Positions 7,279-51,955 of a DNA stretch of 64,000 nt are shown one piece after another (position 1 is the stretch's first letter; each line of letters opens with the position of its first letter). Below the pieces are notes generated by a model that saw only the letters and a program-made list of their open reading frames with translations, ran no database searches and was not told the origin of the DNA. Source of the DNA: Scilla litardierei (Eukaryota > Streptophyta > Magnoliopsida > Asparagales > Asparagaceae). Position numbers and translations under genes: made by a program. The stretch spans positions 279,627,871 to 279,691,870 of the forward strand of contig CM061141.1 of NCBI GenBank assembly GCA_030789695.1, read 5' to 3'.

Positions 7279-7778
7279 NNNNNNNNNNNNNNNNNNNNNN
7301 NNNNNNNNNNNNNNNNNNNNNNNNNNNNNNNNNNNNNNNNNNNNNNNNNNNNNNNNNNNNNNNNNNNNNNNNNNNNNNNNNNNNNNNNNNNNNNNNNNNN
7401 NNNNNNNNNNNNNNNNNNNNNNNNNNNNNNNNNNNNNNNNNNNNNNNNNNNNNNNNNNNNNNNNNNNNNNNNNNNNNNNNNNNNNNNNNNNNNNNNNNNN
7501 NNNNNNNNNNNNNNNNNNNNNNNNNNNNNNNNNNNNNNNNNNNNNNNNNNNNNNNNNNNNNNNNNNNNNNNNNNNNNNNNNNNNNNNNNNNNNNNNNNNN
7601 NNNNNNNNNNNNNNNNNNNNNNNNNNNNNNNNNNNNNNNNNNNNNNNNNNNNNNNNNNNNNNNNNNNNNNNNNNNNNNNNNNNNNNNNNNNNNNNNNNNN
7701 NNNNNNNNNNNNNNNNNNNNNNNNNNNNNNNNNNNNNNNNNNNNNNNNNNNNNNNNNNNNNNNNNNNNNNNNNNNNNN
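7279..7778. other. Assembly gap (500 N)
   Basis: Exactly 500 undetermined bases, the same size as the other two gaps, so probably a placeholder. The first 628 bp of the 5' LTR of element A should lie here, so the true missing sequence is longer than 500 bp if that LTR is whole. Confidence 0.95.
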
Positions 7779-26782: not shown

Positions 26783-27282
26783 NNNNNNNNNNNNNNNNNN
26801 NNNNNNNNNNNNNNNNNNNNNNNNNNNNNNNNNNNNNNNNNNNNNNNNNNNNNNNNNNNNNNNNNNNNNNNNNNNNNNNNNNNNNNNNNNNNNNNNNNNN
26901 NNNNNNNNNNNNNNNNNNNNNNNNNNNNNNNNNNNNNNNNNNNNNNNNNNNNNNNNNNNNNNNNNNNNNNNNNNNNNNNNNNNNNNNNNNNNNNNNNNNN
27001 NNNNNNNNNNNNNNNNNNNNNNNNNNNNNNNNNNNNNNNNNNNNNNNNNNNNNNNNNNNNNNNNNNNNNNNNNNNNNNNNNNNNNNNNNNNNNNNNNNNN
27101 NNNNNNNNNNNNNNNNNNNNNNNNNNNNNNNNNNNNNNNNNNNNNNNNNNNNNNNNNNNNNNNNNNNNNNNNNNNNNNNNNNNNNNNNNNNNNNNNNNNN
27201 NNNNNNNNNNNNNNNNNNNNNNNNNNNNNNNNNNNNNNNNNNNNNNNNNNNNNNNNNNNNNNNNNNNNNNNNNNNNNNNNNN
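26783..27282. other. Assembly gap (500 N)
   Basis: Exactly 500 N. It should hold the end of LTR D and the reverse transcriptase, RNase H and 3' LTR of element J, several kilobases if J is whole. Confidence 0.95.
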
Positions 27283-30354: not shown

Positions 30355-30750
30355 TGCAACATCTTCCCGGCCAGGGCCTCTGCCCTGGCCGGCCAGGGGC
30401 CCTGGCCCTTCGACCAGGGCCTCTGCCCTGGCCGAGGCCGGCCAGGGCCGGCCATGCCCTGGCCGGCCCTGGCCTCTGCCAGGGCCGGTCAGGCCCTGGC
30501 CGAGGCCAGGGCACCGGCCCTGGCCTCTGCCAGGGCCGGCCAGGCCGGCCAGGGCCGGCCCTGGCCTCTGCCAGGGCCGGCCAAGGCCGGCAGGCCGTGG
30601 CCGAGGCTGGCCATTGCCGGCCTGGCCTTGGCCGGCCACTGCCGGCTTGGCCATGGCTGGCCATGGCTTGGCCATGGCCGGTCATGGCCAAGGCCATTTT
30701 GGGCATTGGCCGGCCATGGCCCCTTTGGCCATGGCCGGCCACCCCCTTTG
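30355..30750. repeat. GC-rich GGCCGGCC/CCAGGG minisatellite
   Basis: Nearly 400 bp made of GGCCGGCC, CCAGGGCC and CTGGCCTCTGCC words. The unit CTGGCCTCTGCCAGGGCCGG recurs near 30470, 30520 and 30563; further on it decays to GGCCATGGC words. The block is much richer in G and C than anything around it and has dense inverted repeats. Long ORFs exist in almost all frames of this block, a by-product of its composition. Confidence 0.9.
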
Positions 30751-33439: not shown

Positions 33440-34365
33440 TGTCACGCCCCGCTTCCCTAAAATGGAGGTGAGACGTGAAAAGGTCCGCACGAGAGTCGAG
33501 CTGTGAAGCCCCAAACCCGATAAGCGTCAATAAAACATAAGCAGGTCCCTGTAACCACAAACGGAACAACAATAATAACACAAGGAGAGACAGAAATAAA
33601 ATCTCAAATCTCAGAATTTGTCCAACATGAAAATTAAGTTCAACATCCAGAAAAGCCACCAGGCTAAAATAAAGAGTCTAAAGGCCCAGAACAAGGCCAA
33701 CAAAAGGGACAACAAAACAAAGTATAGGTGCCACGCACCGGCAACTAAACAGTAGTCTAAAACAAAAAGGGGAAGCTCAACGAAGACATTAGGACTGGTC
33801 CCCAGTGTCCACGTACTCCTCGCCAAACACAGGCTCGGGCTCGGCGTCTGCAAACACCTCGTCCTCAACAATGAACTCAGGCTCAGGATCTAACATGTAT
33901 CACCCAAAAGAGTAAAGGGGCACATGTCAGCAAGTCTAAAAGACTTGGGCAAGGAAACTGAAGGTAAGGCGAACTAACAACCTAGCAGTTATAGTATGCA
34001 TGACATGGCAGTTATGGTATGAGTGCACAAGTAAGACATGGTGAAACAATAAGTATAGGAGAACAATTTATCAGGGCATGTCAAGAGTAGCCAAGCTACT
34101 AACAATCTCAATCTTTTCACTAGTCACGATTCACGTTGTTTGTAGATGTTTACGCTTTACAGATGAACTGTTGGACGTTCACACTGACTGGCCCCTTAAC
34201 ACTACCCCAGAACCCAGAGTTTACGCCTTACAACTGCAGTTGCTAATCGGGCAGACTCCCAGTTGAATGGCCGCTTAACGCTTACCCCTCCTACATGTAA
34301 ACGAGCCAGGGTCCCTGCACACGAGCTCAGTAAATGAGCCAGGGTTGCCCCGCACAAGAGCTCGT
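33440..34365 (-). repeat. F 3' LTR, distal half
   Basis: It starts on the plus strand with TGTCACGCCCCGC, the complement of an LTR end in ACA. It continues at 46837 after the S2 insertion; the target bases CTCGT stand on both sides. It is interrupted U5/R sequence with no gene. Confidence 0.8.
34361..34365. other. S2 target site duplication, left copy
   Basis: CTCGT directly before the LTR start TGTAATGCC. The right copy is at 46832-46836. Confidence 0.93.
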
Positions 34366-35102
34366 TGTAATGCCCTACCAGCTACTGCACAAGTACTAGA
34401 GGGGGGGTGAATAGTACTTTAAAATAATAAGGAGTATAATTCCAAATTAAATTGCAATCAACTACCAAATCAATTTGCGGAAGCTTAAATTGAATGACGA
34501 CAACGAAATTAACAATGCTAACAAACGATGTTAATGGGTTCGGATCCACCCAAGTCTCCCCGACTTGTTCCCGGTGATCCTACGTCCCAACCACCCGGAT
34601 CCCCTCCGGATACTTGAGTTAGAAACCCTAACTCAAGATTTCCACTATGAATATCTTGTGAAAAACCTTCACAAGATCAAATCATACATGCAATGGCAAA
34701 GTGAATCCCACAACCCGGGATCACAAACTTCTCTCACAACCGAGAGAACCAATAAGCAATATAAAAGAGTTTAGATGAAATAAATACTCTTACCACAAAA
34801 TCCTATACCTTGAGTTTTTCTTACCCAATAGGTGGAATGAAGGATTTGAGGGAGATGAAGTCACCAAGCCCTAGCACCAAGGAAATGAGCAGCAATGGGT
34901 GCCTAGGGAAGAGTTGGAGACTTGGATCAAGCAATAGCTTGAAAAGCTCACCAAGAACAAGCTTCTCTCTAGATCTAGAAATGAGAGAGAATGGGTTTCT
35001 TGTGAGGAAGAGAGCTTTAGATTTGAGGGAGAATAGCTATCTCTTTAGAACTCAATGAATCTCTTAATGGCAGCTCTAACCTAGATAGAAATGACCTAGG
35101 TT

Positions 35103-35114
35103 CGTATTTATAGG
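35103..35114 (-). promoter_or_regulatory. S2 3' LTR TATA box
   Basis: The minus strand reads CCTATAAATACG. The same box is in the 5' LTR at 45829-45840. The palindrome module starts about 55 bp upstream of it in the direction of transcription. Confidence 0.82.
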
Positions 35115-35166
35115 AACCCAAAAACACAAGTTAGGTCATTCTCCAACGGAAAGAAATCTGGGAGAA

Positions 35167-35705
35167 TTAGTCGGTCAAAGATCAATCACTGACCGACTAG
35201 TTCATCAACTAGTCGGTCAGTCAAACAGCATGGACCTACTAAGAGAGGAACTGAGAAGAAAGAGAATTTCAGACCTAGAAATCTAGTCGGTCCAAGAAGA
35301 CTTTCTGACCGACTAGTTTCACAACTAGTCGGTCAGTCAATGACCGTAGACCGACTAAGAGGCAAAATAAGTTAGTCTGAAGGCAAGTTGACTTAGTCGG
35401 TCCAAGAACAAAAGCAGACTGACTAGATTGTCAACTAGTCGGTCATCAAACGTTCTTAGACCGACTAACGGTAAACAGTAGCTCAGGAGAAATTTAGAGT
35501 GAACAGTAAGTCACAATTAGTCGGTCACAGAAGCATCACTGACCGACTAGTTCACAAACTAGTCGGTCGGTGAGTCAACGTAGACCGACTAACTGTAAAC
35601 AGTAAATTCCAAGAAATTAGAGAATCAAACTAGTCGGTCCAAGAACAGTTGCCGACCGACTAGATCACCATCTAGTCGGTCAGTACTTGTTCTTGTACCA
35701 ACTAA
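35167..35705. repeat. S2 3' LTR tandem palindrome module
   Basis: Five monomers start near 35168, 35283, 35393, 35517 and 35630 (periods about 110-124). Each has TAGTCGGTC, GACCGACTAG, CTAGTCGGTC and GACCGACTAA. The inner pair GACCGACTAG...CTAGTCGGTC is separated by 6-10 bases and can form a hairpin. Confidence 0.95.
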
Positions 35706-36105
35706 CATGCACAACAAAGTCCGAATCGAAGCGCGACGCTTCGAGGAAGTTAGAATGAACTTGTGCAAGGATCCTAGAGCTACGAAATGAGCGTAATGAA
35801 GATAGAAACGTAAGATATACTCAAGGCTTAACATTCTATCAATCGAAACTAAAAGACTATAAATAAAACCTTAATAAACGGTCTTTGAGAGCTTCGATTG
35901 AATCTTCATATCTTCCAAAGCATCGCAAGAGCTTCAACGAAGCTTTAGGCTTGAATATGAGCTTTGGGAAGTGTTGAGATGTCGCTTTGAATGTTCTCGT
36001 GAATTTGGTGACGATCTCCAAAACTGCGCTCACAAATTGTTAGTTCATGGATTATTTATGTTTGCTCATCATCAAAACCAAAACCGGGGAGTCCAATATT
36101 CAACA

Positions 36106-36403
36106 TTCTCCCCCTTTTTGGTGATGACAAACCAACATAAATAATAATCAAAGATAATAATTCAAATGTAAAATACTTACTCCCCCTGCATTGATGACAC
36201 GTTAATTCCAAAATGAATATAAATGAATTGCATCAAGCAGACGAGTAAGATATATAATGAGAATCGATTTTTGAAATATCGGATTTTGAAAATCCTTATA
36301 TGTATCTTAACTCCCCCTGAATCTAACATATCAAATTAGATTCTTGGAAATTGAGTTAAATTTTCATTTGCGCTATTTATTATCATTATCTCTCCCCCTT
36401 TGG
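36106..36403 (-). promoter_or_regulatory. S2 polypurine tracts
   Basis: On the minus strand the tract next to the LTR is AAAAAGGGGGAGAA (36106-36119). Three more tracts lie upstream: TGCAGGGGGAGTAAG (36176-36190), TTCAGGGGGAGTTAAG (36306-36321) and CCAAAGGGGGAGA (36391-36403). All share GGGGGAG. Only the first is at the LTR; the others may be alternative priming sites. Confidence 0.85.
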
Positions 36404-37079
36404 CATTATCCCAAAAATGGGGGGCATACAACGACAACAATTAGGAAATGTAAAATCCAACATCGGGAGTCGTAGACAAAGACAATGGACCAACTTGACA
36501 CCAAGGGAAAATGAAAATTCAAAACAAGGTGTGTCAAATTTTCCATTATCAATAAAAATCAATGATAATCCAATTCATCAAAAATAATATTTGGTATTTT
36601 TTTTCATTTATTGAATAATGAAACATACTCTCCAATATTCAATATTTCTTGGTTAATTTTGTGCATGGAAAACAATTCTATATTAATATAGAAATATAAT
36701 CTATTTAACCAAGTTTTTATGCGTCGAGCGACGAAATCACATTTCAAATGTATTCAACGAATATTAAAATTTGCACGACGAATAAAAGACAAAGTGAACG
36801 ATGATGAACATATATATATATATAGAGACAACATGAGTACATCCAAAAAGATATCACATCGAATATATGAGGTACATCATATGAAGTGAGACACATCATC
36901 TATATAAACAACAAAAAGTACATCATCATCATCAACATCGTCATATCATAAAATCCAACACCGACAACCAGAAAGCACAAAAAAATACATCAAAACATCT
37001 CTCAACCCCATCCTAACCCAAAACACTCTCACTAAAATATATCATCCAGAATGCAGTGGAGAGTCCTCGGAACAGACGA
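36404..37079 (-). other. S2 3' untranslated region
   Basis: AT-rich, no gene. It contains a TA microsatellite near 36812-36824. It corresponds to 2786-3590 of S1. Confidence 0.75.
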
Positions 37080-38735
37080 TCACGAGGAGGAGGCTGGATC
37101 TGCAGCGTCCGTGGGTCCAGTCGACAGAGTGGACTCAGGCTCTGCAGGGAGAAGAGGTGTCTCAGCAGATGGAATCGTTGGGGCAGGAGTGGAGATCTCA
37201 GCAACAGGCTCAACAGCAGCATGAGTCTCGACAGAAGCAGCAGCAGCAGATACATGAGCAGGCTCGGAAACTGGGTCAGCAGCAGGCTCAGAAGGCTGAA
37301 GAGCTGCAGCAGATGGCTCTGGAACACCGGAAGTGGTGGCAACTCCAGGAGCAGAAGTGGAAGTACCAGCAGCAGCAGCAGCAGTGGCCTCATCGCCACG
37401 GGCAAAAGAAGTGACAAGCTCGTCAAGCTCCTCATCGTCCATCTCCTCGGCCTCAGACACCGAAGGAGGAAGATCAATCCCCATCATACGCGCCATACGG
37501 CAGACTACCTCCTCAGTACGAGCCAAACGGGAGTCGTGCTGACGAAGTAGGCGTAGGACATCGTCCAATGAAGCAGGACGAGAGGGGGCAGCAGCAGCTG
37601 ACGGAGTAGACTTAGAAGCAGATGCGGTAGACCTCTGCACGTGACGAAGAGCCGCTAGAGATTTCTTCACGGCCTTCGCGTTCAGAGGCGTACCCAAAGG
37701 ACGCTCATCGTCAGGAGGGAGGGGGACACGGAAATGACGGAATACGAGAGTCAACAAGCAAGGGTATGGAATGTGCGCAGACTTATTGGTCTTGCGTATA
37801 CACTCGAAAGAATCCATCTTATCGAGTATCACGCGAGCCCAATTAATCTCGCACCCCAAGAAAAGAGCGTATATGAGCTTCAAAAACGGCTGAGAGGGGA
37901 GAGAAGAGGATCCATATTTCGGGAGAAGACAGGACTTCAAAATCAGGTTAAGAACACACGCATTCGGCTTAAAAGATTTCGATGGAACACCAATGAATGC
38001 AGAGGGGATAACCTGGAAAATCTCAGAAAGAATAGACTGATCCAAGGAAGAAATGTCGTCTACGGAAATGTCCGAAGGGAGGAGACCACACGACGCACAA
38101 CCAAGGATCTCCCCCAAGATTTCTGCCGTGAGAACTATAGGAGTTCCCAAGACAGTCGTCTCAATGGAGTGGCTGGCGTCGTACTGGCCTCGAATACGGT
38201 TGTCATAGAACAATTTCACGAGGCGAGGGTACGGTTTGGGATTGGCCTTGGGGTCGTATCGGAGATAATCTAGAAGGCCACTATAAGACAGAAGATCAGC
38301 AAGGCCGAGAAAATCAGAGAACTGAACGTAATGCTCTAACAACAGTGAACAGTGCTCTATACGTTTGTACGCTGCGAGACACTGAGGGTCATCGCGGCAC
38401 AACGATATGTCTACACCGCCAACTGGCATAGGAGCTTTACCGTTGGCCTTACGGGTCTTCGGAGGTGGGGTAGGTTCCCTAGTAGGCTCATCCTCAGGGA
38501 TAAAATCAGTATCGGAATCGGGAGGAGTAGCCGGAGATTGGAGAATAGGCTTTTTGGTCTTGGATTTACGGGGTTTAACTATGGCAGTCCTAGGCTTCTT
38601 AGGAGGAGGCGAAGATGGAGAGCCTTGGGTTGACTTGGCACGACGCTTAGGCTTCGGGTGATTCCTAGGGTCGGAAGGCCCTACGGTCATAGGAGAAGCC
38701 CCGGAAGAGGCGATAGGAATGCGAGTCTTAGCCAT
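37080..38735 (-). CDS. S2 ORF3 (env-like position), plant transposon protein domain
   Basis: An intact 551-residue frame downstream of pol on the same strand. The N-terminus is basic and Pro/Ser/Lys-rich (residues 1-100, for example PKPKRRAKSTQGSPSSPPPK), which resembles a nuclear-targeting or nucleic-acid-binding tail. The middle (about 110-350) is globular, with LADLLSYSGLLDYLRYDP, KPYPRLVKLFYDNRI and HIPYPCLLTLVFRHF, and resembles the 'putative plant transposon protein' domain found in plant retroelements. A helical segment near 390-415 (VLRLLRQHDSRLARTEEVV) may be a coiled coil, and the tail is Ala/Pro/Glu-rich. I see no clear signal peptide or membrane segment, so env-like describes position only. 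The function is unknown. Gln- and Arg-rich ORFs on the other strand are shadows. Confidence 0.78.
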   Translation of the reverse strand: MAKTRIPIASSGASPMTVGPSDPRNHPKPKRRAKSTQGSPSSPPPKKPRTAIVKPRKSKTKKPILQSPATPPDSDTDFIPEDEPTREPTPPPKTRKANGKAPMPVGGVDISLCRDDPQCLAAYKRIEHCSLLLEHYVQFSDFLGLADLLSYSGLLDYLRYDPKANPKPYPRLVKLFYDNRIRGQYDASHSIETTVLGTPIVLTAEILGEILGCASCGLLPSDISVDDISSLDQSILSEIFQVIPSAFIGVPSKSFKPNACVLNLILKSCLLPKYGSSSLPSQPFLKLIYALFLGCEINWARVILDKMDSFECIRKTNKSAHIPYPCLLTLVFRHFRVPLPPDDERPLGTPLNAKAVKKSLAALRHVQRSTASASKSTPSAAAAPSRPASLDDVLRLLRQHDSRLARTEEVVCRMARMMGIDLPPSVSEAEEMDDEELDELVTSFARGDEATAAAAAGTSTSAPGVATTSGVPEPSAAALQPSEPAADPVSEPAHVSAAAASVETHAAVEPVAEISTPAPTIPSAETPLLPAEPESTLSTGPTDAADPASSS

Positions 38736-39019
38736 AGTACTACGAGCACAATCAATCGAAGAAAATCACAAGCAACCTAGAGATCACAAGCCAACAACCC
38801 TAGAAATCAAGAAATTCGAAAATAAACCAAACCCTAGAATACCTAGGAGGAGAAATCGAACCCTAGGGCAAGAAATCGACCTAGGAGAGGGAGGAAGATA
38901 CCTAGGGGGTGGAGGCGACGGCGGCGGACGGCGACGATGGCCGGAGATATGGCCGGAGACGACGAGAATGCGAAGGGGCTCGATCGGGGTTTGGGGGTTT
39001 TCGAGTTTGAGCTGGAGAG

Positions 39020-39410
39020 AAGACCGACTAATTAGGAAATTAGTCGAATGAAAAATGAGTATAAGTCGGTCTGGAATCAAAAAGACGTAACTGCCCTAAC
39101 ACACTTAGTCGGTCACAGTTCAAGTACTGACCGACTAGATTACGATCTAGTCGGTCGGTCAATGAGCTTGAACCGACTAAGTCGAAACAGAGGCACAGAG
39201 TGATTTTTAGGGCTAGATTTAGTCGGTCGCAGTATATTCACTGACCGACTAGTTTTCAATCTAGTCGGTCGGTAAGTGTACTATGACCGACTAACGAAAG
39301 AAAATGATAGGAGATGGATATTTGCTTGATCTAGTCGGTCTGAGTTCATTTGCTGACCGACTAGATGAGCATCTAGTCGGTTGACAAGAGAACTGAAACC
39401 GACTAGAAGA
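39020..39410. repeat. S2 internal tandem palindrome module
   Basis: Three full monomers start near 39103, 39217 and 39329 (periods 114 and 112), with a partial copy at 39022-39075. They carry the same TAGTCGGTC/GACCGACTAG pattern as the S2 LTR. The array starts about 240 bp after the pol stop, the same relative position as in S1. Confidence 0.94.
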
Positions 39411-39651
39411 GTCCAAAAGTAGAAATTTGATTTCTCTTCACAAACCACTTGGATGAAACATCCTAACTCACTCATTAGACATCTAAATTACCCCATAAAA
39501 CGTCGAAATCTTAAATACGACATTGAAATACGAATTCGAGCAATAAATTCAAATAAATCACATAAAATTCCCAAAAATTCAATTAATCTAGCATGAATGA
39601 AATATCGCGAAATATATTAGCATGCAAGATGATTGAATTTAAATATGAATC

Positions 39652-42600
39652 CTATATCTCGGATTCACCCATAATCCCCAATTCTCGACGAAACCGCACA
39701 AAGGAGTCCTCCTTTAGGGGTTTCGTGAAAATATCGGCGATTTGCTTTTGGGTTACAACGTACACTAAAATGATGTCCTTTTTAGCAACATGATCATCTA
39801 AGAAATGGTGTCGGACATCTATGTGTTTCGATCGGGAATGGTGCACCGGATTCTTTGAAAGACAAATAGCACTTTGGTTATCCACCATGATAGGGCTAGT
39901 ATCACAATCAATACCAAAATCCTTCAATGTGTGTCTCATCCAAAGAACCTGGGCACAAGCGGCACCGGCGGCAATATATTCCGCCTCGGTGGTTGAAAGT
40001 GATACCGAATTTTGCTTCTTGGAAAACCAAGAGACAAGAGAATTTCCTAGAAAATGGCAAGTGCCACTAGTACTTTTCCTGTCGGATTTGCATCCCGCAT
40101 AATCAGCGTCACTATATGAGACTAACTCATATGTGCTAGATTTCGGATAAAGTAATCCAAAATCTAAAGTGTAACTTAGATAGCGAAAAATACGTTTTAC
40201 CGCTACTAAGTGAGAATCCTTAGGTTGAGACTGATAACGAGCACATATGCATACGGCAAACATAATATCGGGCCTACTTGCGGTAAGATAAAGCAAACTA
40301 CCTATCATACCTCGATATAGACGAATGTCTACATCCTCACCGCCCGTATCCTTGTCAAGATGCGTAGTCGTGCTCATCGGAGTCTTTTTCCCGGAGGCAT
40401 TCTCCATTCCAAATCGCTTTAGCAACTCCACCGTGTACTTCGTTTGGTGGATGAAGATTGCATCGTTCAATTGGCGAATTTGGAGACCTAAGAAATATTT
40501 GAGTTCGCCCATGTGGCTCATCTCAAATTGTTCCTTCATAACATTAGAAAACTCTTCGCAAAGAGCGAAGTTAGTAGCACCGAAAATGATATCATCAACA
40601 TAAATTTGAACTAATAAAATATCATTATTCGCATGCTTAATAAAAAGTGTTGAATCGGCTTCGCCCATTTTAAAATTCAAATCCAAAAGAAAATTCTTTA
40701 GGCGATCATACCAAGCTCGAGGAGCTTGTCTCAAACCATAAAGAGCTTTCTTTAGTTTAAAAACGTGATTTGGAAATTTTTCATTTATGAAGCCGGGAGG
40801 TTGAGAAACGTAAACTTCCTCAACGACATCTCCGTTTAAAAATGCACTTTTAACATCCATTTGAAATAATTTAAAATTCTTATGGCATGCAAAAGACAAA
40901 AGTAATCTAATTGATTCTAATCTAGCTACCAGAGCGAAAGATTCTTCGAAATCGATACCTTCCCCTTGACGATAGCCTTGAGCTACTAACCGAGCTTTGA
41001 TCCGGACGACGACTTGGTTTTCGTCGGTTTTGTTCTTGAAGATCCACTTTGTCCCTATGACGGTGTGGTTCTTCGATGGCAATGGAACAAGCTCCCAAAC
41101 TTCATTCCTCTCGAATTGAATGAGCTCCTCCTCCATGGCTAAGATCCAAGCGCTATCTTCGCATGCTTCATTAATATTCTTTGGCTCTATCGATGAGGCA
41201 AAGGCACAATTTGCGAAGTGGTGAACTTGCGATCTCGTCTTGACACTATCATAGATATTGCCAATGACTTGCTCATGGGGATGGTCACGAACCGAATGAA
41301 GCCGTTTGGGAATACCTTGATCACTTGGAACATTCTCAACACCTTCATTAGTTGGGTTAGTCTCAATAGAATCAATAGAATCATTAGACTTAGAATTATC
41401 AAACGAATCACATAAAACATCCATAGAATCATTATCATTTGAAATTCTAGTTGGAACAAATCCTTCATTAAATGAGACATGAAGCGATTCCTCGATCGTT
41501 GAGGTTCGTTTGTTGAATATCCGGTAGGCTTTGCTACGCGTAGAATATCCAACAAAAATCCCCTCATCGGATCTTGGATCGAATTTGTCCAAACTACCAT
41601 ATGTGTTCTTAATAAAACATTTCGAACCAAAAACACGAAAATGTTTAACTTGAGGCAACCTACCAAACAACAATTCATAACAAGTTTGTTTAGTGCCGGG
41701 CCTCAAAAGTATTCTATTAAACACATAGCAAGCGGTGTGTACCGCTTCCGCCCAAAATTGATGGCCAAGTTGGCTATCATCAAGCATAGTGCGAGCACAC
41801 TCCACTAGCGTCCTATTCTTTCTCTCAACTACACCATTTTGAGGAGGTGCACGAGGGAAAGAGAAGGTGTGAGTAATACCAACTTCATCACAAAATGTCT
41901 CAAAAGTCTCATTCTCAAATTCACCTCCATGATCACTACGAATAGTGACAATGGTGGTTCCTAAGAGATTTTGTACTTTCTTAACAAAAATTGTGAAGTT
42001 TTCAAAAGCTTCATTTTTATTACACAATGAAAATACCCAAGTAAATCTTGAATAGTCATCTACGATGACAAGTCCATACCTTGCATTTCCTAAGGAAGCT
42101 ACTCTAGTTGGCCCAAATAAATCTAGATGTAATAGCTCTAGTGGCCTTTTAGTAGAGATGCTTTTCTTAGGTTTAAATGAAGATTTAGGAAGCTTGCCAC
42201 GTTGACAACAATCACAAAAACTTTTCTTTTCAAAAACAAGCTTCGAAAAACCTTTAATAGAATTCAATTTTGAAAGCTTATATAGTGTTCCAAAGTTCAC
42301 ATGTCCAAAGCGTCGATGCCATAAGTGTTGTTCACTTGTGTTGGCAACGAGACATTGTTCATATGACTTAGGAAGATCCAAAATATAAATGTCTTTACGA
42401 CGAGTTCCGGAAAATAATAATTTTTCATTATCCTTTCTTAAAATATGACACAATCCTTTCGCAAAGCTAACTTTGTAACCTTTGTCACAAAGTTGGCTTA
42501 TTGAAATGAGATTATGATTTAAACCGCTAACTAGATAAACATCACTAATTAAGGGTTTAGAGGGGTTACCGACTTTACCAACACCTATGATGGTTCCGCT

Positions 42601-42714
42601 CTCGTTGCCTCCAAATACGACGCGGTTTCCATTCGCAATGGGAACCACTCCGGAGAGCAATCGAGCGTCACCCGTCATGTGTTTTGAACACCCGCTATCG
42701 AGTATCCAATTCCC
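39652..42714 (-). CDS. S2 Pol polyprotein: protease, integrase, reverse transcriptase, RNase H
   Basis: The frame is open from 42714. The first Met is at 42678, but the protease motif [11 protein letters not shown] starts upstream of it, with catalytic Asp at 42699-42697, so translation must enter from gag and the true start is not this Met. Counting from the Met: GAG-pre-integrase about 118-165 ([22 protein letters not shown]); integrase core with D186, D249 and E285 (D-D-35-[19 protein letters not shown]); reverse transcriptase about 530-775 with [10 protein letters not shown] and YVDD near 693; RNase H about 850-1000 ([26 protein letters not shown]). The total beyond the Met is 1008 residues, without stops. 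These enzymes cleave, copy and integrate the element. Confidence 0.95.
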
Positions 42715-42821
42715 TTAGGAGCTAAATTTAAATTTGTTGCTCCTTTTCTTTTTCTTTTCCTTGAGTACCTAAAGATAGAAACTTTCATATCATGGTACCC
42801 AAGGTCATTGGGTCCAAGGGA
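42715..42821 (-). other. S2 gag-pol junction
   Basis: The gag frame stops with TAA at 42822. It stays open beyond that stop to the protease region, but pol is in the -1 frame relative to gag and has its own stop TAA at 42717-42715. Between them is a purine-rich run, AAGGAAAAGAAAAAGAAAAG. Expression of pol therefore needs stop bypass plus a frame change, a spliced RNA, or internal initiation. Confidence 0.8.
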
Positions 42822-45065
42822 TTAGACCTTTGGAAGCCAAGTCCAAGTGGACTTAGACTTCCCCACATAATTCTTACTATGCACAACATCCGAAAAATAA
42901 GCATTCATGTACATTTGTTTTTCGTCCATGCTTGTGTCCTTTGGGCTCCAAATAGTGAATATTTTGGGAGCCATCATCCTATTGGGTGCATGCATGCGAC
43001 GTTGATTTCTACGTGATGCATGTTGTGGATAGGCATACGGGACATGATGGAATGGTGCACGACGAGAATTATTCATATGATGTGGTGGGTGAACATATGC
43101 ATGTGTAGGAACACGTGCGTGAGGGTGTCTCACATGGTGTGCATGTGCCCGAGAATGTGTTGCATAAAAATCATCATATGTGTGAGATGGTGGAGTAGGA
43201 CGTGTGTTCCTACGTGGCATGGTATTGGTGTACATATAAGCATGCCCCTTCTTTGGAGGTCCACCCAAAGTGGGTTTCTTTCCAAAAGAGGGCGTGGACG
43301 AGGTGGAAGCACCATTGGTAGATGAACTATCAATAGAGTGTTTGCTACCACTCGTAGAGTCACCGGAAGTTGGCCTAACAAAAGTAGTGGCCGCTTTGGA
43401 TGGACATCCCATCGTATACCCCAAACCAATGTGGTGATTGGCCGGAAGTAAGTCACTTAGGATTTTATCCAAATGGTCCTTACCTTTGTTGAATTTGTTA
43501 ATTCGGCCCAATGTGTTCTCATATTTCTCTTTGAGAGAACGCATAGAAGTATCCAAATTGGATACTTGCGATGTGAGCACAAAAACACGAGATTTAAGAT
43601 TCTCGTACTCAATACTCAAAGTCGAGTTTTGAGAAGTTAAATCCGCTATCCTATGTTCTTCCGGATCCTCGATGCTAACATGTTCAAGTTTAGATTTGAG
43701 ATTAACAATCTCATTTCTTAACTCTTCAACAACGGTGTCGTTGTTGGTGATGATAGTCTTAGGCGATGTTTGAATGCTAGCTAGGTCATCTTTTACCTTA
43801 GTATATCTATTTACTAACTTAGTGTATTTTGACCAAAGTTGAGAGTTAGCATTTCTAAGATCATCCATCGTTACCTCATCGCTTTCGTCATTACTATCAT
43901 CGGAAGAGGAGGATCCTTGATCGTTCTCCTCTCTTGCCATGAAGCACATATGTGCATGCTCCACTTTCTCATCATCCGACTCTCCGCTTGAGGAATCCTC
44001 GGAGTCGGTGAATGTTGCTCCGACAAGTCCTTTCTTGTACCCCTTTTTGTATTTCTTGGACTTATCGAATTTTGGCGCCTTCCACTTCTCCTTTTGTTTG
44101 TTGAGAGGACACTCCGCTTTCATGTGTCCTGGCTTATTGCACTTGAAACACAAAGGAGAGGAAGAGGCGTTAGAAGAACCAAATTTACCTTTGGTCTTGA
44201 AGTTACCTTTCCGGAAGAAACGGTTGAACTTCTTGGCCATGAGTGCCATGGACTCCAAGTCCAACTCGTTTTCCGAGTCTTCATCATCGGAAGATGTGGA
44301 TGAAGCCGCCTTGAATGCAATTGCCTTTTTCTTAAGCGCATCTAGGTTCAAATATGACTTCATCTTTTCTTGTAGCTTCACCTTGCTATCTTTGCGTACC
44401 TCGTATGACATCAAAGTACCCATTAGTTGAACTACGGTATATTTGTTCATGTCATTACCTTCCTCGATGGCGAAGGTACGTTTTTCCCAAGAAGAGGGAA
44501 GTCCTTCAATAAGCTTTAAGCACTTCTCCTTTTGAGTGTAGACCTTGCCGAGGGCCTCTAACTCGTTTATTATGTCAACGAAGCGAGCGTAATATTCTTT
44601 CATCTTCTCGCCCTGTTGCATATGAAACATTTCGTAATCTTTGGTTACGACTACGAGTTTAGAGTCTCTTACCCGACTCGTCCCTTCATGTAGTATGAGG
44701 AGAGAGTTCCAAATTTGATATGCACTCTTACATGTGCATATCTTATTGAAGTCCTCGGGCTCCAATGCGCATTGCAAGGCGTTCATTGCCTTGGCATTGC
44801 TTACCTCCGCGGCGACCTCCGCGGTAGTCCATTTCTCAAAATCTTCTTCTTCGGGCTCGATGTACTCCTTCATTGTAGTCCTCCATAAAGATGCACTTCG
44901 GAGGAAGGTTTCCATCCGACATTTCCAGTACCCGTAGTTGGTACCGTTGAAGAATGGAGGCCTTGTAGAGGAATGTCCTTCCATCACCGATGACGCTCCT
45001 TCACGGTTCCTGAAGGTGTCATAGTTGGAAGGTGGAGGCACGGTCTTGTTGTCGTTGGCAGACAT
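42822..45065 (-). CDS. S2 Gag, zinc knuckle and coiled coil
   Basis: An intact 747-residue frame starting 13 bp after the primer site. Residues 35-250 are a copia Gag core (STRPPFFNGTNYGYWKCRM, YARFVDIINELEALG, LIEGLPSSWEKR). A basic linker carries the zinc knuckle CFKCNKPGHMKAEC (306-319), for genome RNA binding. An acidic Ser-rich segment (350-400) and a coiled coil (about 403-540, with LRNEIVNLKSKLEHV and LKSRVFVLTSQV) follow. The C-terminus is rich in His (HAHHVRHPHARVPTHAYVH). A coiled coil in Gag is a described Sirevirus trait. It should assemble the cytoplasmic particle. The last residues, near TWTWLPKV, resemble the segment before protease in relatives. Confidence 0.93.
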   Translation of the reverse strand: MSANDNKTVPPPSNYDTFRNREGASSVMEGHSSTRPPFFNGTNYGYWKCRMETFLRSASLWRTTMKEYIEPEEEDFEKWTTAEVAAEVSNAKAMNALQCALEPEDFNKICTCKSAYQIWNSLLILHEGTSRVRDSKLVVVTKDYEMFHMQQGEKMKEYYARFVDIINELEALGKVYTQKEKCLKLIEGLPSSWEKRTFAIEEGNDMNKYTVVQLMGTLMSYEVRKDSKVKLQEKMKSYLNLDALKKKAIAFKAASSTSSDDEDSENELDLESMALMAKKFNRFFRKGNFKTKGKFGSSNASSSPLCFKCNKPGHMKAECPLNKQKEKWKAPKFDKSKKYKKGYKKGLVGATFTDSEDSSSGESDDEKVEHAHMCFMAREENDQGSSSSDDSNDESDEVTMDDLRNANSQLWSKYTKLVNRYTKVKDDLASIQTSPKTIITNNDTVVEELRNEIVNLKSKLEHVSIEDPEEHRIADLTSQNSTLSIEYENLKSRVFVLTSQVSNLDTSMRSLKEKYENTLGRINKFNKGKDHLDKILSDLLPANHHIGLGYTMGCPSKAATTFVRPTSGDSTSGSKHSIDSSSTNGASTSSTPSFGKKPTLGGPPKKGHAYMYTNTMPRRNTRPTPPSHTYDDFYATHSRAHAHHVRHPHARVPTHAYVHPPHHMNNSRRAPFHHVPYAYPQHASRRNQRRMHAPNRMMAPKIFTIWSPKDTSMDEKQMYMNAYFSDVVHSKNYVGKSKSTWTWLPKV

Positions 45066-45077
45066 AGCTGAGTATCT

Positions 45078-45090
45078 GGCTCTGATACCA
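45078..45090 (-). promoter_or_regulatory. S2 primer binding site, initiator tRNA-Met
   Basis: The minus strand reads TGGTATCAGAGCC, two bases from the LTR end. It matches the complement of initiator tRNA-Met, as in J and H. Confidence 0.95.
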
Positions 45091-45092
45091 AA

Positions 45093-46831
45093 TGTAATGC
45101 CCTACCAGCTACTGCACAAGTACTAGAGGGGGGGTGAATAGTACTTTAAAATAATAAGGAGTATAATTCCAAATTAAATTGCAATCAACTACTAAATCAA
45201 TTTGCGGAAGCTTAAATTGAATGACGACAACGAAATTAACAATGCTAACAAACGATGTTAATGGGTTCGGATCCACCCAAGTCTCCCCGACTTGTTCCCG
45301 GTGATCCTACGTCCCAACCACCCGGATCCCCTCCGGATACTTGAGTTAGAAACCCTAACTCAAGATTTCCACTATGAATATCTTGTGAAAAACCTTCACA
45401 AGATCAAATCATACATGCAATGGCAAAGTGAATCCCACAACCCGGGATCACAAACTTCTCTCACAACCGAGAGAACCAATAAGCAATATAAAAGAGTTTA
45501 GATGAAATAAATACTCTTACCACAAAATCCTATACCTTGAGTTTTTCTTACCCAATAGGTGGAATGAAGGATTTGAGGGAGATGAAGTCACCAAGCCCTA
45601 GCACCAAGGAATTGAGCAGCAATGGGTGCCTAGGGAAGAGTTAGAGACTTGGATCAAGCAATAGCTTGAAAAGCTCACCAAGAACAAGCTTCTCTCTAGA
45701 TCTAGAAATGAGAGAGAATGGGTTTCTTGTGAGGAAGAGAGCTTTAGATTTGAGGGAGAATAGCTATCTCTTTAGAACTCAATGAATCTCTTAATGGCAG
45801 CTCTAACCTAGATAGAAATGACCTAGGTTCGTATTTATAGGAACCCAAAAACACAAGTTAGGTCATTCTCCAACGGAAAGAAATCTGGGAGAATTAGTCG
45901 GTCAAAGATCAATCACTGACCGACTAGTTCATCAACTAGTCAGTCAGCCAAACAACGTGGACCGACTAAGAGTAGATCTGGGAAGAAAGAGAATTTCAGA
46001 CCTAGAAATCTAGTCGGTCCAAGAACACTTTCTGACCGACTAGTTTCACAACTAGTCGGGCAGTCAGTGAACGTAGACGACTAAGAGGCAAAATAACTTA
46101 GTCTGAAGGCAAGTTGACTTAGTCGGTCCAAGAACAAAAGCAGACCGACTAGATTGTCAACTAGTCGGTCATCAAACGTTCTTAGACCGACTAACGGTAA
46201 ACAGTAGCTCAGGAGAAATTTAGAGTGAACAGTAAGTCACAACTAGTCGGTCACAGAAGCATCACTGACCGACTAGTTCACAAACTAGTCGGTCGGTGAG
46301 TCAACGTAGACCGACTAACTGTAAACAGTAAAGTCCAAGAAATTAGAGAATCAAACTAGTCGGTCCAAGAACAGTTGCCGACCGACTAGATCACCATCTA
46401 GTCGGTCAGTACTTGTTCTTGTACCAACTAACATGCACAACAAAGTCCGAATCGAAGCGCGACGCTTCGAGGAAGTTAGAATGAACTTGTGCAAGGATCC
46501 TAGAGCTACGAAATGAGCGTAATGAAGATAGAAACGTAAGATATACTCAAGGCTTAACATTCTATCAATCGAAACTAAAAGACTATAAATAAAACCTTAA
46601 TAAACGGTCTTTGAGAGCTTCGATTGAATCTTCATATCTTCCAAAGCATCGCAAGAGCTTCAACGAAGCTTTAGGCTTGAATATGAGCTTTGGGAAGTGT
46701 TGAGATGTCGCTTTGAATGTTCTCGTGAATTTGGTGACGATCTCCAAAACTGCGCTCACAAATTGTTAGTTCATGGATTATTCATGTTTGCTCATCATCA
46801 AAACCAAAACCGGGGAGTCCAATATTCAACA
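45093..46831 (-). repeat. S2 5' LTR
   Basis: 1739 bp; partner of 34366-36105. It has the TATA box at 45829-45840 and the palindrome module at 45896-46432. Short ORFs in it (for example 45292-45501 and 46351-46560) are duplicated in the other LTR and are not genes. Confidence 0.95.
45896..46432. repeat. S2 5' LTR tandem palindrome module
   Basis: Five monomers, collinear with 35167-35705, but with about 18 substitutions and one single-base deletion between the two copies. Some half-sites are closer to the consensus here (GGACCGACTAAG against GGACCTACTAAG), others in the left LTR. Confidence 0.94.
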
Positions 46832-46836
46832 CTCGT
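46832..46836. other. S2 target site duplication, right copy
   Basis: CTCGT directly after the LTR end, matching 34361-34365. Confidence 0.93.
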
Positions 46837-47661
46837 TTCCTGGATCACAACCCAGGAGCGTATTTCATTTGGCATATGGGTGCACCTAGCCACAATCATT
46901 TCACAAGGTGTAGCAGAGCTACGCAATCACGGGAACACTTAAAGAATGCAATGACATGACAATTAATTTGCGTACCGTTAATGGACATTAAACATGACAT
47001 GGTAGTTGTGCAACATGGAAAATGACGGATCTAGCTTCATTGTCAAGCTAGTTCCTAAAATTGCGCCTAGGCGAGTATCATTTCGTCGCCTAGTCTCTTT
47101 TACGCCTACAACAAGCAAATGGCCTAAGACATGGCCCAAAACCCTAAGTGGCAAGTTTCACTTGCCTAGCACCGAGGATGACGATCAACGAGGCCGTCAC
47201 ACAAATGCTAACTATGGAGATGAGATCGCTGCCATGGCAAAATAATATTAGAACAACATCCAACCTAGTTTTATTAGGGTTTCACAAAAACACAAATGGG
47301 CTATGAGGATATTAAGAGATCGCGTTATTACCGTATCGGAAGCTGAAGAACGATGCCGAGCAAGCACAGCAACGGAAGAAACGATCCGGGGAACCTAGGG
47401 TTCAGATCTGGAATGGATGGGGAAAATCTGGAGAAATGGGGTTTTGGGGATTTTTGGGGGTTGGAGATGGCCTAGGACATGGTGGTAGACCAAAATGGAG
47501 AGGGAAACTCCAAAGGAGGAAGGAATGGTTTGGGGAAATGTTGGAGAGTGATTTGGGGAAGAAGGAGGCTCAGGAGAGTGAAAGAGGGATGAAAGAAATC
47601 ATGGTTGGGGTTTAAATAGGGAGTGCTGGCGGCTGCCCAAAAATTAGGGTTTCGACACTGA

Positions 47662-48110
47662 TTAGTCGGTCAAAGAGCAACCACTGACCGACTAGTTTGG
47701 GAACTAGTCGGTCGGTTGACCAACGCAGACCGACTAAGTCCAAAGAGTAACTCCTGTACAAAAATAGGATTTAGAATTAGTCGGTCAAAGAACAACTACT
47801 GACCGACTAGTTTCTCATCTAGTCGATCGATGAACGTTCTTAGACCGACTAAGAATGAATAGTACTTGGTATCAAAATGATCATAGAGCTAGTCGGTTAA
47901 AGAACGATTGCTGACCGACTAGTTTGCAACCTAGTCGGTCGACCAATGTTCTTAGACCGACTAACGATAAACAGTAACTCTTGAGTAATTTACAAAGCCC
48001 ACTAGTCGGTCCATGAAGGTTTGCCGACCGACTAAATCGTCATCTAGTCGGTCGGTTCCCCTTCTTACACCGGCTAACGTGCACAGAAAGTTCCGAAATG
48101 GAGCGCGAAG
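47662..48110. repeat. F LTR tandem module of about 113 bp (TAGTCGGTC/GACCGACTA)
   Basis: Four monomers start near 47662, 47777, 47889 and 48002. Each holds TAGTCGGTC, GACCGACTAG, CTAGTCGGTC and GACCGACTAA in this order, with CTGACCGACTAGTTTG or relatives in the middle. The monomers match the S2 LTR and S2 internal arrays. The match goes on past the array: GTGCACAGAAAGTTCCGAA and GGAGCGCGAAGCTC here against ATGCACAACAAAGTCCGAA and GAAGCGCGACGCTTC in S2. Confidence 0.93.
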
Positions 48111-48349
48111 CTCTGGGATCGATTCCTAAGACCCCCTAGGCTTGATCTAACAATAAGATATGACCGATATGAAGCCCGTCACGAATGACTTACTCCAAAA
48201 TCGACGATTCCAATGAAGAAGCTAGAAAATCACGACGAAACGATCGAAAATGAAAGCTACGGAGACGAAAACCACACATGAGGAGAAAATCCACCCAAAC
48301 ATATATAAATAATATAAATAATCCAGATACATGAAAACCAGTCGTTACA

Positions 48350-48395: not shown

Positions 48396-50282
48396 TCACG
48401 TGTCCGGAAACAAAAGTGGGAAACGCTCTCGCATCTCATCCTCATTCTCCCAAGTAGACTCTCCAGGCGAGCCATGTCGCCACATCACCCTCACAAGATT
48501 GACAACCTTGTTCCGAAGTGACTTCTAACGCCTGTCCAGAATCTACACTGGCGGCTGGTCATACGTCATATCAGGGCGAACGGTAATCTCTGAGAAATCC
48601 ACAGCATGAGATGTATCGCTAATGTATCGACGAAGCTGCGACACATGGAAAACATTGTGAAATCCCTCCAAAGATGGCGGCGAGGCTAAGCGGTAGGCTA
48701 CCTCGCCAACTTTCTCCAGAATGTCAAACGGTCCAATGTATCGCAGGCTCAACTTCCCTCGCTTCCCAAAGCGAATCACACCACGATTCGGGGAAATCCT
48801 CAAGAACACATGGTCGCCCGGCTGAAACTCCAAAGGACGGCGTTTAGCATCCGCCCAATGCTTAAAACGGTCCTGAGCAATCCTCAACCTCTCCCGAATG
48901 TTCCTGACAATATCCACAGTCTCCACAATCATCTCAGGTCCCAACAGCTCTCGATCTCCAACGTCATCCCAACTCAATGGCGATCGACATTTCCTCCCAT
49001 AAAGAGCGGCGAAAGGCGCCATGCCAATACTCGCCTGGAAGCTGTTGTTGTAGGAAAACTCTACCAGATGTAGATGGTCCTCCAACGAACCCTTGAAATC
49101 CAACATGCACTCCCTTAGCATATCCTCCAAGATCTGAATCGTTCTCTCGGACTGGCCATCCGTCTGCGGATGGTACGCCGTGCTTAAACTCAGACGCGTA
49201 CCCAAACTCTTCTGCAAACTCTGCCAGAACTGAGATGTGAACCTCGTGTCCCTGTCCGACACGATACTCACGGGGACTCCGTGAAGTCATACGACCTCCT
49301 GCACGATTCACGTTACATCACTATCTAAACTAGGAAAAGGAAATAAAACGGAGAGCAAAAGAATTTACCTCCATATATCTCCTCACTAGCGCCTCAGTGG
49401 TCTGTCCCACTCGGAATGGAATAAAGTGCGCGGATTTGGTCAATCGATCTACGATCACCCAAATCACGTCATTCTACTTCGGACTCCGAGGTAGTTCAGT
49501 CACAAAATCCATAGTGATGTGTTGCCATTTCCACTCCAGAATCGAAAGCGGTTGTAGCAACCCTGCCGTACGCTGATGCTCCGCCTTCACTTGCTGGCAA
49601 ACCAAACACTTGGCCACACTCTGAGCCACGCTCCTCTTCATACCATGCCACCAATAGTTCAGACGAAGATCCTGGTACATCTTGGTCCCACCAGGATGCA
49701 CAGAATACGGCGAACTGTGTGCCTCCACCATCAACCCCTCTCTAATATCCCCAGCTGGAACGCACAACCTAGCTCCAAACCTCAGCGAGCCATCCTCATG
49801 AATTAAAAAGTCAGTCCGCAGACCGGCTTCCATATGCTCCTGAATCTTCACCAGCTTTGGATCCTCAGCCTGGCCAGCCTTGATCCGATCCATAATCGTT
49901 GACTGTATCTGCATACACATCAACGAAGAAGCCTCTCCAGGAAGGACAATCTCAACACCAGACTCGCAAAAATCCTGCTGCAATCTCCACTGTGAGGTCA
50001 AAATCATCACCGCTGGAAGCCTACTCAGCGCATCAGGAACCACATTCACCTTGCCAGGGTGATACTACAATTCGATCTCATAATCCGCCATGAGCTCCAA
50101 CCATCGACGATGTCGCATGTTGAGCTCCTTCTGAGTAAAAATATACTTCAAGCTTTTGTGATCGGTGAAAATCTTCACTTTCTCACTCAGCAGGAAGTGC
50201 TTCCAAATCTTAAGAGCAAACACAACAGCAGCCAACTCCAAATCATGCGTCGGGTAATTCTTCTCATGAACCTTGAGCTGAC
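48396..50282 (-). pseudogene. F pol remnant: RNase H end, integrase and chromodomain
   Basis: The frame read leftwards from the gap begins with RNase H ([20 protein letters not shown]) and VVPDALSRL, then the HHCC zinc-binding part of integrase (YWWHGMKRSVAQSVAKCLVC), the core ([27 protein letters not shown] with the catalytic Glu), [12 protein letters not shown], and a C-terminal GPF-type segment ([34 protein letters not shown]). After two stops a chromodomain continues in the same frame (LVRVMWRH, ESTWENEDEMRERFP) and ends at 48396. The chromodomain is known to direct insertion towards heterochromatin. Stops lie near 50070, 49474, 49291, 48543 and 48525, several explained by C-to-T changes. 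A 70-nt intron-like insert sits at 49299-49368. Confidence 0.88.
49299..49368 (-). other. Intron-like 70-nt insert in F integrase
   Basis: On the minus strand the integrase text is interrupted between a codon for Glu (after RYM) and the codons for EVV. The insert begins GTAAATTC, has a T/C-rich middle (TTTTATTTCCTTTTCCTAG) and ends GTGCAG. Its length is not a multiple of three, and without it the flanking codons are in one frame. This fits a spliceosomal intron, but a random insertion is possible. Confidence 0.5.
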
Positions 50283-50782
50283 NNNNNNNNNNNNNNNNNN
50301 NNNNNNNNNNNNNNNNNNNNNNNNNNNNNNNNNNNNNNNNNNNNNNNNNNNNNNNNNNNNNNNNNNNNNNNNNNNNNNNNNNNNNNNNNNNNNNNNNNNN
50401 NNNNNNNNNNNNNNNNNNNNNNNNNNNNNNNNNNNNNNNNNNNNNNNNNNNNNNNNNNNNNNNNNNNNNNNNNNNNNNNNNNNNNNNNNNNNNNNNNNNN
50501 NNNNNNNNNNNNNNNNNNNNNNNNNNNNNNNNNNNNNNNNNNNNNNNNNNNNNNNNNNNNNNNNNNNNNNNNNNNNNNNNNNNNNNNNNNNNNNNNNNNN
50601 NNNNNNNNNNNNNNNNNNNNNNNNNNNNNNNNNNNNNNNNNNNNNNNNNNNNNNNNNNNNNNNNNNNNNNNNNNNNNNNNNNNNNNNNNNNNNNNNNNNN
50701 NNNNNNNNNNNNNNNNNNNNNNNNNNNNNNNNNNNNNNNNNNNNNNNNNNNNNNNNNNNNNNNNNNNNNNNNNNNNNNNNNN
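50283..50782. other. Assembly gap (500 N)
   Basis: Exactly 500 N. It should contain the reverse transcriptase, protease, gag and 5' LTR of F, and probably the 3' end of E, many kilobases if both are whole. Confidence 0.95.
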
Positions 50783-51955
50783 AAATGATTTCAAAGCCAA
50801 TATACCCAATGTATGAAAGTAAACAACAAATGACATTCTCCTCAATCCAATTCAAAGAAAAGTAAGGAAATAAGCACTGTATCACATTCTTTGGGATATA
50901 TCACAAATGACCAAGTTTCTAATTTTCATGGAAATGGCCAAAATAAAAGAAATTCCTCTAAATTGTGGGAGATGAGATTGCATCACTCATGTTGTTTATT
51001 CTTTCATTTAGTTATTCATTTTTTTCTTTTTCTTTTCTTTTCTTTTTTTATTCTTTTTTGTTTATGTTATGCATTCACGCGATAACACTATGAAATGCAA
51101 ACACCGCCCCCTTTGCATACACGCGATAACGCTATATAGGCAAAGGGATGGAATGATTTCCTAAATCTCATTTTTGGCGTCCTCCCCAATGTTTTGTGGG
51201 GTACCGGCTACTCAACTTGATTAGGAAAACCATTCACTTATATAACTCTTTTTCTCATTCCAAACATGAATTATCAACTCATCCAACCACTCCTTAAGAG
51301 GAAAACAAAGCATGCACCATATGGCCACACCCAATCCAATTAAAAACTAAGCCATTCATCCCAAATCATGCAATCACTTACACCAAACTTTTTCCAAATT
51401 ATCTCAAAGAGAGTATTACGACATATAATGTAGTTCCATACATGGCATATTTGCATATGAATCCAAATTAGAAAAGAATTAAACCGTGCCAATCAAACAT
51501 TTATGAATTTGATACCAAAATGATAATCCGAAAAATTGCATGTCATTAAAGCATGTAGGGACTACGCATAAAGCTAACAGCTTAGGGACGAGGAGAGACA
51601 AAATATGATATGCAATGAAGTTCATGGGATGAGGGCAAAATGGAGGTATCTCAAAAAAAATTTGGCTAACATCAAAATCCTAACAATCCTAAAGATTCTA
51701 ACACTCTTCCCCCAACTTAAAATAAACAATGTCCGCAATGTTGGGTGAGTATAAGATCTCACAAAAGATCCTAGCAAAGAAAAGAAAAGCATACGAAAGC
51801 AAACATGCAAAAGAAAACTAACTAACTTTTGATTTTATTTATTTACACTACGTAAAGGAAAGAATGCACCTTAGCAAAAGGCGGATTTCGAATGTATAAC
51901 GGTGGTGGCAACTGCTCGATCATATCCTTTTGCTCCTCTGCCAGCCGCTTTGGAG
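50783..51955 (-). other. E 3' non-coding region
   Basis: No gene. On the minus strand ATTGCGGACATTGTTTATTT followed by TAAGTTGGGGGAAGAG (about 51705-51742) parallels the ATTGAGGACAATG and purine-tract block in A and B. Near 51078-51136 the words CACGCGATAACACTAT and CACGCGATAACGCTAT are repeated. A T-rich run lies at 51005-51060. Confidence 0.65.

Follow-up and report, generated by a model that had tools for sequence, protein, structure and literature searches.

Ty1/copia and Ty3/gypsy retrotransposons are usually treated as separate lineages, each with its own promoter. Within Ty1/copia, the Sireviruses carry many dyad-symmetric boxes, called RM boxes, most of which have CGG...CCG as their core; they lie in the upper half of the long terminal repeat (LTR), shortly before the TATA box, and also before the env gene (PMC2829016). 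Such arrays were found in 13 of the Sireviruses surveyed, nine of which also have them before env, and they were called Sirevirus-specific since they were absent from the 'classic' elements of the same Ty1/copia data set, their role being left open in that study (Bousios 2010, PMC2829016). Here, we analysed a 64,000-nucleotide stretch of the Scilla litardierei genome (assembly GCA_030789695.1, contig CM061141.1, positions 279,627,871 to 279,691,870 of the forward strand; hereafter the window), in which a chromovirus-like Ty3/gypsy element (F) and a Sirevirus-type Ty1/copia element (S2) that is nested in an LTR of F, both on the minus strand, carry arrays of the same half-site at the same promoter position. 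Judged from their sequences, the two blocks are homologous over several hundred bp (the array and about 120 bp of flank), and the best explanation as a whole is probably that of a transferred upstream promoter module, which was then inherited and amplified and whose array acts as a set of activating binding sites.

The half-site TAGTCGGTC has 56 exact occurrences in the window, compared to 0.13 expected, and each monomer of the arrays is made of four such 9-bp sites, as TAGTCGGTC or its complement GACCGACTA, at offsets 0 (+), 23 (-), 42 (+) and 65 (-). On the minus strand, there are four monomers in F (47663..48076, starting at 47663, 47778, 47890 and 48003), five in the 5' LTR of S2 (45895..46430) and five in its 3' LTR (35168..35704). 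These three tandem arrays lie where a sequence-only reading of the window had placed them, and the common order of four half-sites that it had described for F and S2 is confirmed. Another array, of three monomers, is found inside S2 between pol and ORF3 (39106..39405), with stray half-sites nearby at 39022 (exact) and 39063 (one mismatch), and S2 has RM boxes both in the LTR before a TATA-like box and before its env-like ORF3. Monomer periods are 115/112/113 bp in F and 109-124 bp in S2, and 108-125 bp from start to start across arrays. The geometry inside the monomer is rigid: when half-sites carrying no more than one mismatch were independently located in 27 stretches (in which one place is counted twice, as L055 and L063, and some elements contribute both LTRs), neighbouring (+,-) sites were exactly 23 bp apart in 234/235 pairs, and (-,+) sites were 19 bp apart in 127/233, the remaining ones being mostly at inter-monomer distances. 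The symmetry axes are about 21 bp apart, that is two helical turns, and across 18 arrays the linkers between monomers range from 34 to 51, with 11 different lengths. In the 3.68 Gb genome, the exact dyad, with its arm gap of 14 bp, occurs at 481,387 places, compared to 434 for a gap of 15 bp, and the 10-bp inner gap is found 253,184 times; these counts reflect the amplification of a limited set of forms, so that constraint is better judged by comparing families.

The arrays of F and S2 align with about 70% identity (E about 1e-51). Once the half-sites were left out and the monomers paired in order (F1-S2.1, F2-S2.2, F3-S2.3, F4-S2.5), the ungapped spacers were still identical at 98/152 positions (null 42.7 +/- 5.2; 0/2000 shuffles), this in-order pairing being narrowly the best among 120 assignments (144 vs 142 for the next). 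The order of the monomers was also compared between seven Ty3 and eight Sirevirus arrays, picked one per family or form with others of the same families omitted: the unique best match was between first monomers in 35 and between last monomers in 37 of the 56 array pairs, when shuffled orders gave about 8 (maximum 18 in 500). Similarity continues past the last half-site into a flank located on the minus strand at 48077..48201 in F (TGCACAGAAAGTTCCGAA, GGAGCGCGAAGCTC, AAGATATGACCG...; aligned with 16 Sirevirus and nine other Ty3 rows) and at 46431..46562 in the S2 5' LTR (TGCACAACAAAGTCCGAA and the hairpin TCGAAGCGCGACGCTTCGA), both with approximate outer limits. Bases 1-60 of this flank matched significantly in 15 of 16 Ty3 x Sirevirus pairs (at most 3/300 shuffles; the exception, F-L066, gave 27/300) and bases 61-120 in all 16 (at most 1/300). 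For bases 121-240, the Ty3 family L073 gave 0, 6 and 1 of 300 against S55, L066 and L064 and 260/300 against S2, and may share a longer flank with Sireviruses than other Ty3 elements do; the best of the other 12 pairs, F-L066, reached 19/300. On the TATA side, the similarity ends at the first half-site: none was detected in any of the 16 pairs, the best values being 74/300 for the nearest 50 bp and 29/300 for the next 100 bp, so that each element has its own sequence in the tested parts adjoining the block. Considering the spacer match, the monomer order, the shared flank and the sharp limit on the TATA side, we regard the block as homologous rather than convergent, and since it has the same orientation and promoter position in both elements while the neighbouring LTR parts are unrelated, we conclude that a segment was transferred. 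The sequence-only reading had already noticed similarity beyond the array in the same orientation, which the flank of about 120 bp bears out, and had named an alignment outside the half-sites as its own test, which is significant for spacers and flank. Its proposal that a block of about 500 bp passed between the superfamilies is supported for the transfer of a homologous segment, but not for a local exchange with S2, the chance of which it had seen as raised by the nesting.

The module is not limited to these two elements, as it is present in several Sirevirus and several Ty3 families of this genome, so that the transfer must be older than either copy. In the first 420 kb of contig C1, arrays were found in the Ty3 families Fb and F57 (F-like), Fc, and T43 and T52 (assigned to Ty3 on RNase H/integrase similarity), and in the Sireviruses S53 and S55. 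Fc (L036/L058/L059; G000 C1:54-63 kb) has the module in LTRs that are 6.3 kb apart; no open reading frame (ORF) of at least 100 amino acids (aa) was found in the 2.8 kb of its body that were read (L056), and this family is probably non-autonomous. Outside the half-sites, the flank 14-mer CTAAGATATGAGCG has 18,982 places in the genome, the first 20 of which (all from the initial 1.7 Mb of one contig, with some elements represented by both LTRs) are all beside such an array, in 13 Sirevirus and 7 Ty3 LTRs as classed by LTR start similarity and by coding pieces where present. Among the 40 of 6,187 candidates that were scored in a search with the F block were seven same-strand pairs 7.26-7.31 kb apart, a spacing that would be expected for the two LTRs of one element. 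Among viral contigs, one contained a single dyad and no array (L001).

In both elements, the array ends shortly before a TATA-like box on the minus strand, which is found 45 bp past the array in F (CCCTATTTAAACCC, 47608..47621) and 56 bp past the 5' LTR array in S2 (CTATAAATAC). We propose that the shared block would correspond to the upstream activating part of the U3 promoter, with phased paired sites ending about 45-56 bp before the TATA-like box and a distal flank. Each 74-bp monomer would be bound at its TAGTCGGTC half-sites by a single sequence-specific protein, as two dimers or as a tetramer, and families of both superfamilies, together with the env-like ORF3 of S2, would answer to the same factor. 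Protein binding and a transcriptional effect are what we infer from the array; the half-sites fit a protein site because they are conserved between F and S2 (137/144 identical positions, vs 98/152 for the spacers) and because their changes are uncompensated. GTCGGT is complementary to ACCGAC, the core of the plant DRE, and a DREB-type factor would be one candidate.

For the history of the block, a tree was built from the last monomer and the flank (26 rows, 25 of them different; 192 columns). It contains four clades, one with F and its Ty3 relatives (98/98), one with the Ty3 families T43 and T52 (100/100) and two of Sireviruses (95/95 and 97/96), and a single old transfer fits this tree but is not proven by it. 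An ancestral block would have passed at least once between a Sirevirus and a chromovirus-like lineage, long before S2 inserted here. The receiver would have retained the LTR ends and the TATA/R/U5 part that it already had, in what would be an enhancer-only swap, and the block would then have been inherited in each lineage, with gains and losses of monomers, and amplified to a very high copy number. Either template switching or DNA recombination could have been the mechanism of such a transfer.

Other origins of the shared block were considered. S2 does sit inside this F LTR, as the sequence-only reading had stated and as is confirmed by the 5-bp target duplication CTCGT on both sides of S2 (34361-34365 and 46832-46836) and by F copies with an empty site, but the local gene conversion or recombination that this nesting had been thought to favour is next to impossible. 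Indeed, F-type LTRs elsewhere, which that reading had suggested checking for the module, have it without S2 at this site: four F copies carry the block at 98.0-98.7% identity over the array and three of them (L003, L004, L007) align straight across the empty S2 site, which refutes local exchange. Moreover, the blocks of F and S2 differ by about 30% while the two LTRs of S2 are 98.7% alike (about 1.3% difference). It is also extremely improbable that unrelated LTRs separately built arrays of one host factor's site. Palindromic arrays of other motifs do exist in other LTR-like regions of the window, two of them before a TATA-like box, indicating that such arrays arise repeatedly, but F and S2 agree in their spacers, in the order of their monomers and over 120 bp of flank, and convergence was rejected on these grounds. 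The sharp edges and the tandem structure could rather evoke a small mobile element or a satellite inserted in both LTRs. We find this very improbable, since F and S2 share the position and orientation of the block before the TATA-like box, since 20/20 flank places examined sit in LTRs and since no terminal repeats or target duplication were seen by eye at the block edges, where no dedicated search was made.

Several observations nevertheless weigh against parts of the reading that we prefer, that is an old transfer, possibly a single one, of a module read by a protein. Since U3 is transcribed at the 3' end, the array could mainly be a nucleic-acid structure, with monomers folding as long hairpins whose stems are the half-sites and which would serve the RNA or feed small RNAs. 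The RNA of 4/4 monomers folds with z from -5.6 to -7.6, the outer spacers pair more within a monomer than between monomers (0.552 vs 0.480 +/- 0.018, 0/2000; 37 monomers kept of 94), a same-array control of this pairing gave 23 up and 9 down of 34, and, in maize, the palindromic parts of Sirevirus LTRs attract small RNAs (PMC10760457, citing Bousios 2016). We still consider structure to be an unlikely main role: half-sites pair equally well with a random monomer's partner (0.925 vs 0.924; 0.949 vs 0.953), so that they are kept as sequence and not merely as complement, both arms were changed in 26/264 dyads with only 4 of these alike, loop lengths are fixed to the base although hairpins do not need this, and the arms of a DNA palindrome can also stay alike by conversion between arms. 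This dyad count used arms 23 bp apart, while RNA hairpins pair sites 1-4 and 2-3, and covariation was recounted accordingly. Spacer 1-2 was found to covary with spacer 3-4 in the same 74-bp monomer, most at columns 16/59 (G-C 14, C-G 12 of 37), which could stem from hairpin function or from palindrome-arm conversion and which argues in part against a pure protein-site reading. In addition, neither S1, another Sirevirus-type element of the window, nor the region before ORF3 gave a TATA-like box in the scan that detected those of F and S2. A more specific possibility, which seems to us a long shot, is an element-borne trans-acting system, in which a protein of S2-type Sireviruses, perhaps ORF3, itself preceded by the array, would bind the half-sites as a tetramer and activate or de-silence the LTR, Ty3 elements and Fc having captured the array and living on this Sirevirus activator and S1, which has a similar layout in two places, being a sister system with a co-changed recognition sequence. 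As to the number of transfers, the split between Ty3 and Sireviruses has a support of 44/0, so that one transfer is neither shown nor rejected, and T43/T52 joins the F clade just as weakly. More than one transfer is conceivable but not what we favour, since six Ty3 arrays (F, Fb, F57, Fc, T43 and T52) are alike at their TATA-side junction (...TAGGGTTT...) and Sireviruses have another one, as a single event would give. Sirevirus to Ty3 is the somewhat likelier direction, because many Sireviruses are described with RM arrays both in the LTR and upstream of env (PMC2829016) and because S2 has both. The reverse, in which Ty3 chromoviruses would be the source of the module and Sireviruses its receivers, is a less likely but serious alternative. 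It is favoured by the greater diversity of the Ty3 rows (mean identity 73% vs 84% among Sirevirus rows, in a sample biased by the 14-mer used), which also argues against a young acquisition by Ty3, and by the different motif, CAGTCGACTG, of the related S1. It is disfavoured by the RM arrays of 13 of the surveyed Sireviruses, nine with arrays before env as well (PMC2829016), and by the presence of the S2 module in both places, which a single Ty3-to-LTR transfer would not by itself yield.

The assignment of the two elements rests on the following features, all on the minus strand. S2 covers 34366..46831, with its 3' LTR at 34366..36105 and its 5' LTR at 45093..46831, and has the order of a Ty1/copia element: gag (Retrotran_gag_2; 42822..45101, a stop-to-stop frame whose upper end exceeds the gene) is upstream of pol (39652..42714), where the integrase (rve) precedes the reverse transcriptase (RVT_2) in one ORF. 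Directly after the LTR end at 45093, TTTGGTATCAGAGC matches the Sirevirus primer-binding site TATCAGAGC (compared with PMC2829016), and the seven C read by eye at 34401-34407, some 35 bp from the end of the LTR, are a candidate for the polyC integrase signal of Sireviruses near the LTR 3' end. ORF3 (37080..38765, 561 aa stop to stop, env-like position) matches the Pfam family Transposase_32 (PF20167, E 8.8e-15), and no homologues were found in the protein database at E 0.001. PF20167 gave 25,844 first-look candidates in the genome, with 150 matches scored; many of the best-scoring ones sit in frames of 700-930 aa, and the 11 that were aligned share 18-24% identity with the domain of S2 ORF3. 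TAGTCGGTC sites were present at 1/16 PF20167 loci (L090), where they belong to an adjoining S2 LTR, and DNA before the ORF was absent or shorter than 400 bp in 10/16; this survey says little about ORF3-like genes at large. The LTR of F starts with TGTAACGACTGG at base 48349 and runs leftwards (46832..48349), its remainder resuming at 34365 and going downwards on the other side of S2. The pol pieces of F (48546..50790) contain SH3_Tf2-1, Integrase_H2C2 and RT_RNaseH (Ty3) domains in broken frames, on which its Ty3 assignment is based. The chromo-like end of its integrase (48399..48524, E 1.8e-4) is a piece of only 42 aa with 21.8 bits, under the Pfam cut-off of 25.1. One of the four F copies with the block, L005 (G000 C4:221940788-221944385), adjoins a Ty1-type pol that is 64-68% like that of S2 and is not S2 at this site. 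The window contains three N runs of exactly 500 bases (7279-7778, 26783-27282 and, in the pol region of F, 50283-50782), which some listed frames cross, and GGCC-rich short tandem repeats at 30367-30741.

Other palindromic arrays of the window have different motifs. S1, part of whose pol is 79% like that of S2, has CAGTCGACTG boxes (at most two mismatches), 20 in its LTR at 4067-4848 and 10 at 1610-1914 before a 177-aa frame, and 14 further CAGTCGACTG-like 10-mers were found elsewhere in the window. Distances of 22 and 41 recur in both S1 arrays and 63 in the LTR, close to the 23/42/65 of F and S2, so that the spacing (22/19/22) resembles the F/S2 tetrad with a different motif. When distances were chosen after looking, the S1 LTR gave 15 vs 1.9 (0/3000); when the F/S2 distances +/-1 were fixed beforehand, the result was weaker (13 vs 5.7 +/- 2.2, 15/3000), the internal S1 array gave 8 vs 3.2 (43/3000) and the 18.5-kb array was not significant (6 vs 2.95, 172/3000). 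Palindromic boxes with a spacing of 20-22 bp also precede a TATA-like box in two more LTR-like regions. In the LTR pair 7779-9151/13165-14537, pairs of CAACCGATCGGTTG and CACCCGATCGGGTG that are 20 bp apart sit at 7928-8032, with a copy near 13314-13420, 52 bp before the TATA-like box, and CAACCGATCGGTTG has 34,625 exact places in the genome. At 18550-18905, in an LTR-like region, CACTCGGCCGAGTG-like boxes (at most four mismatches) form an array 81 bp before a TATA-like box; the gap between neighbours is 22 bp in five cases and 21 bp in one. Altogether, this suggests a general array design with a motif that changes from family to family, and since the motif differs between families of the same design, its sharing by F and S2 stands out as descent.

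On the reading that we prefer, a whole upstream promoter module would have crossed between superfamilies, and its motif is now present at hundreds of thousands of places in this genome. If one factor reads the module, activation and silencing would be shared by families of both superfamilies, and their bursts would thereby be linked. The module offers a concrete test case for how transposons gain new promoters and a defined candidate binding site with which the factor acting on Sirevirus RM boxes could be sought. In literature text, the matches listed for TAGTCGGTC/GACCGACTA all look unrelated by title and abstract opening, and nothing equivalent to a cross-superfamily LTR exchange was found in a search that left out most subscription papers, so that absence is not shown.

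Comparable arrays are found in VANDALs, which are DNA transposons. Like the motifs bound by VANC proteins in VANDALs, the sites described here are a clustered short motif in non-coding transposon parts that was spread by tandem repeats, and the VANC6 motif is also found in AT9TSD1, which is unrelated to VANDAL and responds to VANC6 (PMC5735166). There, however, the binder is element-encoded, binding was shown in vitro and motifs have one orientation (PMC5735166), whereas the half-sites described here alternate in orientation. In Tnt1 and Retrolyc, the U3 regulatory part likewise evolves modularly and separately from the coding part, but this was described within the Tnt1 group and the available text describes no transfer to Ty3 (PMC1838419). 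Chimeric LTRs made by template switching between co-packaged RNAs in Triticeae illustrate a possible route; they were proposed for similar elements, with no Ty1/Ty3 hybrid in the text available (PMC1950507). A palindromic Copia/Sirevirus motif has been seen in another superfamily of transposable elements, the maize Helitrons, in what is, in the available text, a motif-level report for folded regions and not for a homologous promoter block (PMC10760457). The closest relatives remain the Sirevirus RM boxes, with which the arrays described here share the position before TATA and env and the half-site CGGTC/GACCG, as in Vitis (CGGTCGACCG) and in Osr8/Osr10 (PMC2829016). RM arrays themselves were thus already known in Sireviruses; in comparison with the published boxes (PMC2829016), the arrays described here have non-adjacent arms, 14 and 10 bp apart, and what is new is their homologous presence in Ty3 elements, their rigid, fixed four-site geometry and their scale.

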